A stretch of 64,000 bases of DNA from Liolophura sinensis (Eukaryota > Mollusca > Polyplacophora > Chitonida > Chitonidae). The stretch lies in contig NC_088302.1 of assembly GCF_032854445.1 (NCBI RefSeq), positions 24,999,788 to 25,063,787 on the forward strand, given 5' to 3'. Shown here piece after piece: positions 1,720-46,707 of the stretch (its first letter is position 1; each line of letters begins with the position of its first letter). The notes beneath the pieces were generated by a model, which was not told the DNA's origin, searched no databases, and saw only the letters and a list, made by a program, of their open reading frames with translations. A program made the translations under genes and the position numbers.

Positions 1720-1885
1720 GATTCAGATCGGATAATTGCAACCGCAACCAAAAGAAGCGGGAATGCTCTTGAAGCTAGATTGGATGTGTTTGATGCGCGG
1801 AAAAATGACAGTGGTGAATACAGATGTGTTGTTGAAACACTTGCCCCCAAATACAGCTTTAAAAAAATATACATCCGTGTTTATG
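1720..1885 (+). CDS. VEGFR: Receptor exon 1 of window: end of Ig domain 3
   Basis: Acceptor TTTTTAAG before 1720, donor GTGAGT after 1885; starts in phase 0 and ends with one base of a codon. It encodes the C-terminal half of an Ig fold with the classic DSGEYRC motif, where the cysteine closes the domain disulfide. The matching first half must lie in an exon before the window. In the VEGFR family Ig2 and Ig3 hold the ligand-binding surface. Confidence 0.85.
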
Positions 1886-44800: not shown

Positions 44801-46707
44801 ATTGTATTTTGGATAGGGTAACTGTAATTTTATTTTAGTTAAATGTGACAGGAGAGAGATTCTCTTCAAACAGAGAAGAAATGATAGTACTAGAGTCCTC
44901 TTCTGGTCTTACATTATATTAACAACATGCAGACATACATTTCAGTCGACCTAATGATCAATGTGTATAGCTCACGTCTGGCACCACTGCCTTTCACCTA
45001 GCAACAAAGTCTTTTCTCAAAATTATTATGCTGCTAATTAATTAGTACCACGTGCAAGCTACATATGCATACCATAGTATAGCATATGATGTGTACTATT
45101 ATAACCACATAATCTTCTGCAGCCCAAGATGTACTTGGGCTACAGCCATGACTCCATGGCTCAGTCGGTTAGCGCGCTAGCACAGCGTAATGACCCAGGA
45201 GCATCTCACCAATGCTGTCGCTGTGAGTTCAAGTCCGGCTCATGCCGGCTTCCTCTCCGGCCGTAAGTGGGAAGGTCTGCCAGCAACCTGCGGATGGTTG
45301 TGGGTTCCCCTGGGCTGTGCCTGGTTTCCTCCTACCATAATGATGGCCGCCGTCATATAAGTGAAATATTATTGAGTACGATGTAAAACACCAATCAAAT
45401 AAAAAAATAAATAAACAAATACAGCTATGACAGTTTGAACAAGACAATGTGGGGGCTCTTGAAAACTAATGCAGCTAAAAGGCAGGACATTATAACAGTT
45501 CCTAGATCAAATATACATCACTGTTAGTAGTAGCTGTATTTATTTATTTATTTATTTGACTGGTGTTTTATGCCATACTCAAAAATATTTCACTTATACG
45601 ACGGCGGTCAGCATTATGGTAGGAGGAAACCGGGCACAGCCCAGGGGAAAGAGAGACTCCTGAGTCATTACGCTGTGCTAGCACACTAACCAACTGAGCC
45701 ACAGAGGCCCCGTAGTAGCTGTAAGACCTCTTTTTTTTATCTACATCAGTTTATGAGAGCCCCCACTATATCTCGCCTAAATCTATGCGATTTTGACACT
45801 CTCTTGGACTCTTGGAATGCAGATTCGTCTTACTTAAGTCTCTTTATGTAGACCAGCATACCGTTATCAGACTTCGAGAAACCTTATATCAAAAACACTA
45901 CTGACCTTATAAATTTAGGATTCGATATTAAGTCTTTTTATTCTTCAGGATCCCTAAGTTCATGTCACATGGTTTGTCAAGACATAAAATTGACATAAAT
46001 ATTTTATTTCACCTGCGTTATGTTTGTGCACTGACTGTTGGTTGAGGAACATTTGGATACGCCATATACATGGCTGCTCAACATAGTGCAGCCATGAATA
46101 CTGCATATCCAAATACATGTATTCCTCAACCCACTGTCAGTGTACACAGACTGGTTTGCGAGAGGCCCCACTTTGACTGAGTTAAAACTACTTGAACTTG
46201 TGAGATTCCTGAAATGCTGACTGAGTTTATTTAAAAGAAACCAAATTAATCGTCGTAAAGAGTGTAAACTACAACCATTTTCAGATAACATTACCAATGA
46301 CCACTGCATAAGCTACTACATATAATTTTCTCCAAAGTGACAAAGACACGATTAGAACAGGACAGTTGCTTTCTAATTAATAGACACAAACTATATCATG
46401 CTGCACAAAGGAGTTATCAAGATTAGGGTGAGGTTGGCTACGTGTAGAAGTGTATAAACAGTCAAATCTGGTGGTCGTACCAAATAATATGTGTTGTTGT
46501 TGTGCTGCCAACTGGCTTATCTGAGTATTATGTTTGTGTATTTCACTTATTTCAGTCTTCTATTCATAAAAGTAAATGAACTTACACAGTCACATTTCCG
46601 GCGCCCCTCAAAACGATGGGATCGGGAACATTTATTGTTAAATCGTCTTCAATTTCCACTCTATCATCGTCGTCTTCTTCCTCATATATCGCGTCAAAAT
46701 CAGCCAT
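35827..46707 (-). CDS. CHIC2: CHIC family gene (cysteine-rich hydrophobic domain protein), complete, six exons
   Basis: Read on the - strand, exons 46707-46586, 43323-43269, 39585-39430, 39114-39058, 36206-36147 and 35877-35827 join without frame break into 166 residues plus TAG, about the length of vertebrate CHIC2. The start is [15 protein letters not shown], the acidic N-terminus typical of the family. The core in exon 3 has [20 protein letters not shown] and the cysteine string [12 protein letters not shown] followed by [15 protein letters not shown] proteins attach to membranes through palmitoylation of this string and localise to vesicles and the plasma membrane; their biochemical role is poorly known. 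The C-terminus FRPD matches the family. The gene converges on the receptor gene. Its introns hold most of the minisatellites between 36 and 45 kb. Whether it corresponds to CHIC1 or CHIC2 cannot be decided; a single pre-duplication gene is likely. Confidence 0.96.
36147..36206 (-). CDS. CHIC2: CHIC exon 5
   Basis: 20 codons, phase 0 in and out: [20 protein letters not shown]. Acceptor GTTTTTACAG, donor GTGAGT. The LHW-LSK-RC pattern is conserved in the family. Confidence 0.95.
36595..37480. repeat. 77-bp minisatellite in CHIC intron 4, about 11 units
   Basis: CACTAGTATCCAAGCCAATG, CCAGGTACCTGACACACCTA and CTGATGCTATACTGAAGCCA repeat in order. One unit is broken by a TGTACCCAAGGTGTGC insertion near 37075. 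Confidence 0.93.
37545..39030. repeat. 25-bp minisatellite with ~272-bp higher-order repeat
   Basis: Base unit CACACATCAGAGCAGCTACA plus CCTCC. Higher-order blocks starting at ATGCATCAGAGGAGCTACA recur at 38135, 38416 and 38688 and carry a TTTCACGGCCGCTAGACTTC segment. Sits in the CHIC intron between exons 4 and 5, directly next to exon 4. Confidence 0.93.
39058..39114 (-). CDS. CHIC2: CHIC exon 4
   Basis: 19 codons, phase 0 in and out: [19 protein letters not shown]. Acceptor TTGTTTTCAG, donor GTAAGG. The following intron runs into the 25-bp minisatellite only about 30 nt after the donor. Confidence 0.95.
39430..39585 (-). CDS. CHIC2: CHIC exon 3: cysteine-rich hydrophobic core
   Basis: Exactly 52 codons between acceptor CCCTTTAAG and donor GTAAGT. 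Holds [15 protein letters not shown], the [18 protein letters not shown] palmitoylation/membrane segment and WPVICLSKR. This is the diagnostic part of the gene. Confidence 0.97.
39586..43268. other. CHIC intron 2 (between exons 2 and 3)
   Basis: No coding sequence seen. Contains a minus-strand SINE family B copy at 40306-40570, pyrimidine and C runs near 39705 and 40115, and low-copy AT-rich DNA. Confidence 0.6.
40306..40570 (-). repeat. SINE family B copy, minus strand
   Basis: Starts with GAGTGAGTGAGTGCTTGGGG and TTTAACGTCATACTCAACAA, the reverse complement of the tail of the 4441-4800 copy. The tRNA-like head is missing or too diverged. Confidence 0.75.
43269..43323 (-). CDS. CHIC2: CHIC exon 2
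   Basis: 55-nt exon between acceptor TTTTTCTTCAG and donor GTAAGA; phase 2 in and phase 0 out. Encodes [18 protein letters not shown]. Found by motif on the reverse strand; no long ORF marks it. Confidence 0.95.
43755..44615. repeat. 26-28-bp minisatellite in CHIC intron 1, about 32 units
   Basis: Unit ACAACTGTCTAAAGCATATG plus TCTGGGAC, alternating with shorter ACTGGGAC and TCTGAG variants. Confidence 0.93.
45141..45431 (+). repeat. SINE family A, full length with target-site duplication
   Basis: TACAGCCATGAC at 45141-45152 and TACAGCTATGAC at 45420-45431 flank a near-consensus element in CHIC intron 1. Confidence 0.9.
45527..45723 (-). repeat. SINE family A, minus strand, internally deleted
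   Basis: GTAGTAGCTGTA at 45527-45538 and 45712-45723 flank a TTTATTTATT... element lacking about 90 bp in the middle. The exact flanking repeat suggests the shortened element inserted as such or lost its centre recently. Confidence 0.88.
46586..46707 (-). CDS. CHIC2: CHIC exon 1 with start codon
   Basis: ATG at 46707-46705 in the context AACAACAATGG. Forty codons, [15 protein letters not shown] onward to VLRGAGNVT, then two bases before donor GTAAGT (46585 downward). The ending [10 protein letters not shown] matches the conserved RGxGxVTVFGLSN junction of the family. Confidence 0.95.

Follow-up and report, generated by a model that had tools for sequence, protein, structure and literature searches.

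Neighbours of the ParaHox genes Gsx, Xlox and Cdx have been described in several animals. According to the cited parts of the respective studies, FLT1, a VEGFR, adjoins Cdx in the hemichordate Ptychodera flava (PMC3698058), CHIC adjoins Gsx in amphioxus save for a retrogene (PMC5803294), pdgfr, kit/csf1r and vegfr adjoin ParaHox genes in vertebrates (PMC2020491), and the ParaHox pair of corals has POMP and HPF1 as flanking genes (PMC6214176). Here we describe a stretch of 64,000 nucleotides (the window; C8:24999788-25063787, where C8 is the 58,388,612-base scaffold NC_088302.1) from the genome of the chiton Liolophura sinensis (609,464,459 bases in 632 contigs), which carries a gene for a receptor tyrosine kinase of VEGFR type as well as CHIC. 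The assembly was first published under the name Liolophura japonica, with a slightly different total of 609,495,693 bases in the paper (PMC11068029), and the species name was later corrected (PMC12441733). The ParaHox locus of this chiton very probably retains part of the gene neighbourhood of the bilaterian ancestor, and, with its reordered ParaHox genes, is a new protostome case of a conserved neighbourhood already described.

From left to right, the block on C8 comprises Xlox (-), Gsx (-), an intronless kinase-like gene (+), Cdx (-), an IGHMBP2-like helicase gene (+), POMP (-), a join of 200 N, the receptor (+), CHIC (-), a second join of 200 N and an SLC12A-type gene (-). The span from Xlox to CHIC is 247 kb. 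Gsx, Xlox and Cdx are closely linked, with all three genes inside 24.799-24.924 Mb and no run of N among them, 76-201 kb to the left of the window on the same chromosome. An earlier note, made from the letters of the window alone, had taken the DNA for molluscan, named the receptor and a complete CHIC as its two well-supported genes, converging about 14 kb apart, proposed that their linkage predates the protostome-deuterostome split, and predicted Gsx, Xlox or Cdx nearby; the lack of a ParaHox gene on a chromosome-scale scaffold was named beforehand as the outcome that would speak against it. The DNA is indeed from a chiton, the receptor (+) and CHIC (-), both far above chance, are convergent and separated by 13.7 kb of sequence free of N, and no further family exceeded its own cut-off in the selection of open reading frames scanned in the window. 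All three ParaHox genes, predicted blind, are present on the chromosome-scale scaffold, and together with POMP nearby and the kinase tree described below they support a linkage older than the split.

Of 312 candidates in a genome-wide homeodomain search, 150 were scored, giving 150 reported matches. Three full homeoboxes lie to the left of the window at distances of 85 to 200 kb (C8:24799394, 24871984 and 24914264), each of them on the minus strand. The homeodomain of Xlox scores 117.7 bits with PDX1, compared to 90.8 for the next PDB chain, and that of Cdx 116.3 bits with CDX1/CDX2, compared to 84.6 for the first differently named PDB chain; the Gsx homeodomain is identical to that of GSX1 at 57 of 60 positions. 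Upstream exons contain FPWMK in Xlox and PYDWM in Cdx, and the N-terminus of Gsx reads MSRSFLVDSLILKK, which we take to be the typical motifs of Xlox, Cdx and Gsx, respectively. Homeoboxes of at least 61 bits (50 among the matches listed) are expected 0.03 times per 400 kb around a random place. Instead of the canonical Gsx-Xlox-Cdx order, the chiton has Xlox-Gsx-Cdx, one inversion away. Gsx(+)-Xlox(+)-Cdx(-) is, we presume, the orientation in amphioxus and human, and is assumed here to be ancestral; a single inversion of its Gsx-Xlox pair gives exactly the chiton trio. The cluster is also interrupted, with the intronless kinase-like gene between Gsx and Cdx.

Ten phase-consistent exons of the receptor (12315-22110) encode the juxtamembrane region, a full tyrosine kinase domain and the tail, with the first stop at 22110. 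The nine exons from 12315 to 20066 and the tail have AG/GT borders, save that the last exon ends at the stop. The kinase domain contains HRD and DFG, and visual inspection shows an insert of about 45 residues. Upstream, the window holds seven exons (six Ig, one transmembrane) and one probable half-domain, and further Ig exons lie to its left, the first one located at C8:24994072. The class III/V type and plus strand given in the earlier note were borne out, whereas position 1720 proved to be an internal exon and not the start of the gene. We infer seven Ig segments; domain 4 is represented by a single half, which has no Pfam match, and domain 1 scores below threshold. The assembled protein, scored without the first exon and Ig domain 4, exceeded the Pfam cut-offs for PK_Tyr_Ser-Thr (291.6 bits), VEGFR-1-like_Ig-like (38.5) and Ig_VEGFR-1-like_5th (33.8), and narrowly that for a PDGFR Ig family (28.4, cut-off 27). 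This receptor is also the sole genome match of Ig_VEGFR-1-like_5th at E <= 0.001, with 5 candidates scored.

It is exceedingly improbable that the receptor falls outside the VEGFR/PDGFR group, for example as an FGFR or RET type. Its kinase is about as similar to FGFR1 (49.8% identity) as to KDR (50.6%) and has a long branch. However, in a tree of nine kinases (the chiton receptor, KDR, PDGFRA, KIT, FLT3, CSF1R, FGFR1, RET and another chiton kinase; one IQ-TREE run), of the kind that the earlier note had called for, the receptor groups with KDR, PDGFRA, KIT, FLT3 and CSF1R, apart from FGFR1, RET and the other chiton kinase, at 93/95 (ultrafast bootstrap/SH-aLRT), just under the star level of the tool. 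The class III/V group forms one side of a branch in 98% of 200 bootstrap trees. Identity as FGFR or RET was rejected on the basis of this tree. Within the group, the four class III rows cluster at 100/99, and KDR and the chiton receptor stand outside, without a supported order between them. The VEGFR-type Ig families above cut-off argue in the same direction, as does the best PDB match, VEGFR1/VEGFR2 with 176.5 bits compared to 145.9 for FGFR1, for a query roughly joined from part of the kinase exons. Other exons of the chiton genome look FGFR-like and RET-like by eye. No second VEGFR-type receptor was found among 12 stretches from ten other loci read by eye; the kinase search behind this check had 101 matches, 93 of them outside the receptor gene, and the strong match at C7:31988759 is not among the stretches read. 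The protein presumably acts as an ordinary PVR/VEGFR-type receptor. Separately, a kinase exon at C6:10846427-10846699, 56% identical over 91 residues in the receptor search, has as its best PDB chain one labelled EGFR (9p9u, 170 bits), an odd label for the sequence; the next chains, FGFR and RET, score about 123 bits.

CHIC consists of six phase-consistent exons that encode 166 residues between a start at 46707 and a stop at 35827. Its Erf4 domain (PF10256) scores 45 bits in Pfam against a cut-off of 29.3, and the cysteine string is visible in the sequence. The exon with this string is 72% identical over 57 residues to human CHIC2, and all six exons align to the human protein, including the MADFD start and the IFRPD end. 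This alignment strongly favours CHIC1/CHIC2 rather than GOLGA7. The gene is single-copy, as 5/5 genome matches fall within it, and its product is presumably an ordinary Erf4-family membrane-traffic protein. The features of the block are collected in Table 1.

Table 1. Features of the ParaHox-receptor-CHIC block and marker families on scaffold C8
Feature	Window position	C8 position	Strand	Evidence or remark
Xlox		24799097-24813666	-	homeodomain best match human PDX1
Gsx		24871762-24874592	-	homeodomain 57/60 to GSX1
Intronless kinase-like gene		24904406-24905788	+	Pkinase 88.6 bits
Cdx		24914039-24923900	-	homeodomain best match CDX1/CDX2
IGHMBP2-like gene		~24942731-24956981	+	AAA_11, AAA_12, AN1 finger
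POMP		24963774-24968160	-	UMP1 72.6 bits; collinear exons, three located
VEGFR-type receptor tyrosine kinase gene	1-22110	24994072-25021897	+	5' end at least ~5.7 kb left of window
Ig domain 3, second half	1720-1885		+	splice and phase consistent; Pfam V-set sub-threshold; first half outside the window, to its left, at C8:24999378-24999511
Probable Ig domain 4, second half	3919-4035	25003706-25003822	+	codon scan alone; no Pfam match
Ig domain 5, Ig_VEGFR-1-like_5th	4963-5289		+	Pfam match
Ig domain 6, first half	6324-6510		+	weak acceptor
Ig domain 6, second half	8040-8170		+	
Ig domain 7, first half	8848-9031		+	assembled exons; Pfam
Ig domain 7, second half	9688-9812		+	assembled exons; Pfam
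Transmembrane exon	11048-11175		+	hydrophobic run seen directly
Juxtamembrane and kinase exons	12315-12444, 13193-13297, 14206-14325, 15682-15959, 16491-16613		+	
Kinase exons, continued	17322-17392, 18069-18109, 18589-18688, 19961-20066		+	
C-terminal tail exon with stop	21424-22110		+	
CHIC gene, complete	35827-46707	25035614-25046494	-	six coding exons
CHIC coding exons	46707-46586, 43323-43269, 39585-39430, 39114-39058, 36206-36147, 35877-35827		-	
Scaffold join of 200 N	58989-59188	25058776-25058975		right end of VEGFR-CHIC contig
SLC12A-type transporter		~25070115-25091113	-	
HPF1		36.75 Mb		
Pan3		45.22 Mb		
Fip1		51.12 Mb		
GDT1/TMEM165		51.55 Mb		

Each described system resembles the chiton locus in part. 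Ptychodera flava likewise has three ParaHox genes with a VEGFR beside Cdx, but its cluster is described as intact, the clone did not reach CHIC, and PRHOXNB does not adjoin it (PMC3698058). The chiton differs in the Xlox-Gsx-Cdx order and in the IGHMBP2-like gene and POMP that stand between Cdx and the receptor. Amphioxus also has CHIC near the cluster, at the Gsx end and with an SYCP1 retrogene between (PMC5803294). In contrast, chiton CHIC is on the Cdx side, past the receptor. In the vertebrate paralogons, which in human lie on 13q12, 4q12, 5q and X, CHIC and POMP are presumably linked to ParaHox genes as well. Class III/V receptors are linked to them as in the chiton, but the genes are spread across several paralogous regions after genome duplication, and PRHOXNB, which has no match in the chiton, is present in the accounts cited (PMC2020491, PMC4471637). 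Platynereis dumerilii provides a protostome ParaHox neighbourhood with genes common to human; unlike in the chiton, the neighbours named include Btk, AIR1L, Rad50 and Ccna, and Cdx lies apart from Gsx-Xlox (PMC2723086). The coral pair shares with the chiton its closeness to POMP, whereas HPF1, adjoining in corals (PMC6214176), is about 12 Mb off on the same scaffold in the chiton. Among the titles and abstract beginnings searched, which leave subscription journals mostly uncovered, none was found that describes Vegfr, Chic or Pomp as a neighbour of ParaHox genes in a protostome. The main texts of the chiton genome papers contain no word beginning Hox or ParaHox (PMC11068029) and none beginning ParaHox, Gsx, Xlox or Cdx (PMC12005716).

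Common descent is the simplest reading of the proximity of ParaHox genes, receptor, CHIC and POMP, and the ParaHox-VEGFR-CHIC proximity is probably ancient. Several points of assembly, gene content and gene order weigh against this. Xlox, Gsx, Cdx and POMP lie together without a join, and so, separately, do the receptor and CHIC, on a contig of 81.7 kb between two joins; the two contigs are linked solely via 200 N. Because this join separates POMP from the receptor, it is Omni-C scaffolding that brings the receptor and CHIC close to the ParaHox genes. The 320 kb read (C8:24783900-25103787) contain two runs of exactly 200 N, the left one (24976896-24977095) between POMP and the receptor and the right one (25058776-25058975) beyond CHIC. 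According to the assembly table, there are 1,110 gaps and N makes up 0.0364% (PMC11068029), which amounts to 200 N per gap; both runs therefore have the appearance of ordinary scaffold joins. At the left join, the two contig ends have a piece in common, 94% alike over 47 bases and in the same orientation. Since a third copy of this repeat lies at ~24.9356 Mb, the piece lends adjacency weak support, and an overlap of the contig ends was dropped as proof of it.

The VEGFR-CHIC contig could have come from elsewhere and been misplaced beside the ParaHox contig; two joins flank it, gaps are numerous in this assembly, and small contigs are the hardest to order from contact data. Such an artefact is nevertheless improbable, as the scaffolder is blind to gene identity and yet chose two genes whose relatives flank deuterostome ParaHox genes. 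Moreover, the two share one contig, and a VEGFR-type receptor and CHIC also form a pair at human 4q12. POMP, join-free on the ParaHox contig, is a neighbour of FLT1 in human. It is also itself a ParaHox neighbour in corals (PMC6214176). Since the scaffolding blindly reproduces neighbours known from deuterostomes, we take the placement beside the ParaHox contig to be probably correct.

With regard to content, seven marker families were searched, which we selected as human or cnidarian ParaHox neighbours, HPF1 on the basis of the coral paper; the matches other than POMP are at family level. The EXOC1-type match is on C4, not C8, and is weak, with a stop. URAD/PRHOXNB (OHCU decarboxylase family) has 0 genome matches, which does not prove absence, as matching runs exon by exon. 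We know of no other animal in which IGHMBP2, SLC12A or an intronless kinase is a ParaHox neighbour. The main text of the Platynereis study has no word beginning POMP or Flt, and its sections 9 and 13 name neither CHIC nor a receptor kinase of VEGFR type (PMC2723086). With regard to order, 3 or 4 reversals separate the five genes from the arrangement assumed for deuterostomes; the number varies with the ancestral orientation of the receptor and with how the second contig is oriented. Among random orders, about 34% can be reached with at most 3 reversals and 82% with at most 4. The order and orientation of the block genes are not conserved, and the chordate-type flanks, with CHIC at the Gsx end and PRHOXNB at that of Cdx, were not found, chiton CHIC being on the Cdx side. 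As the order is like many random ones, conserved order was given up as an explanation, and conserved content is claimed in its place.

The scrambled order would also be expected if the ancient linkage existed at chromosome scale only and the closeness within 250 kb were coincidental or secondary, and GDT1/TMEM165, Fip1, Pan3 and HPF1 are indeed on C8 but 12-27 Mb from the ParaHox genes. This is quite improbable, however, given that three genes of a 58.4-Mb scaffold stand no more than ~130 kb from Cdx: the chance that a given gene falls within 130 kb of a given place is 4.3e-4 genome-wide, and about 0.0045 for each given C8. In addition, the receptor and CHIC were named before the ParaHox genes were seen; POMP deserves less weight in this respect because it was one of seven markers tried. 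Common descent of the close block also agrees with the linkage of the markers, 5 of the 6 located (POMP included), or 5 of the 7 searched, being on C8, which makes up 9.58% of the genome (binomial 4.5e-5 and 1.4e-4, respectively). Paralogon neighbours other than ParaHox genes, which the earlier note had proposed looking for on the scaffold, are represented by POMP close by and by these markers.

The chiton has its three ParaHox genes clustered inside 125 kb and brings three deuterostome or cnidarian neighbours to the protostome side. It bears, for a mollusc, on a question from section 13 of the Platynereis study, whether cnidarian ParaHox neighbours also occur at a protostome cluster (PMC2723086). 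The genes meant there are those of Nematostella and may include POMP, a flanking gene of the coral pair. The ancestral neighbourhood is now directly testable across other chromosome-scale mollusc genomes, and the swapped order in the chiton offers a natural test of whether colinear ParaHox expression depends on the order Gsx-Xlox-Cdx.

Two processes could have kept the block. Slow rearrangement without selection would preserve it by inertia, which we regard as the reasonably likely explanation. Alternatively, ParaHox enhancers spread over bystander genes would hold it as a regulatory block. A VEGFR/PDGFR-type receptor, CHIC and POMP would then have stood near the ParaHox genes before the protostome-deuterostome split (POMP before the cnidarian-bilaterian split) and been kept for more than 550 million years since ParaHox elements spread over these neighbours, a proposal that we put forward tentatively and consider doubtful. 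Under it, inversions inside the block would be tolerated and breaks out of it would not. A loose constraint would fit the tolerated inversion, the displaced CHIC and an intronless kinase sitting between Gsx and Cdx, and some constraint would fit proximity retained over such time. If this were true, the receptor clusters at vertebrate ParaHox loci would be inherited bystanders.

Genes of the block were sought by open frames, codon usage and targeted searches, which may miss genes with short exons. The IGHMBP2-like gene was named for its set of AAA_11, AAA_12 and AN1 finger domains, which we take to be typical of IGHMBP2. The intronless kinase-like gene belongs to a dispersed family with 29 matches, 18 others at 70 bits or more; the copies have open frames of 247 to 1185 residues, one with an internal stop, and the family may be retroposed. 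A tRNA scan (bacterial settings) and an Rfam scan of the window gave no match.

Elsewhere in the genome, at least 11 homeoboxes lie within 0.75 Mb at C1:73594328-74337648, the leftmost, among the matches listed, on the opposite strand; this is probably a Hox cluster with one inverted end gene. Tandem arrays of homeoboxes with similar scores, unusual for such genes, occur at C9:8214551-8242802 (at least 10, mostly ~2.84 kb apart) and C5:1098451-1163070 (at least 11). Dense minisatellite arrays occupy introns and intergenic parts of the window at 693-1126, 9809-10601, 26117-26986 and 36604-39022, with further arrays at 43769-44613, 54155-55359, 59199-61973 and 62977-63813. Such minisatellites produce long open frames that contain no known family, for example in the introns of CHIC. 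A frame of 237 residues on the minus strand (53043-53756) includes a charged stretch and matches no Pfam family within E 0.05, its matches to Nop52 and Pox_Ag35 being weak and below cut-off; it is possibly part of a mobile element. Finally, the peptides DPGVSHQCG and KPTTIRRLL recur across C8:24783900-25103787, with 10 matches per strand, which points to a spurious open frame in a common dispersed repeat.

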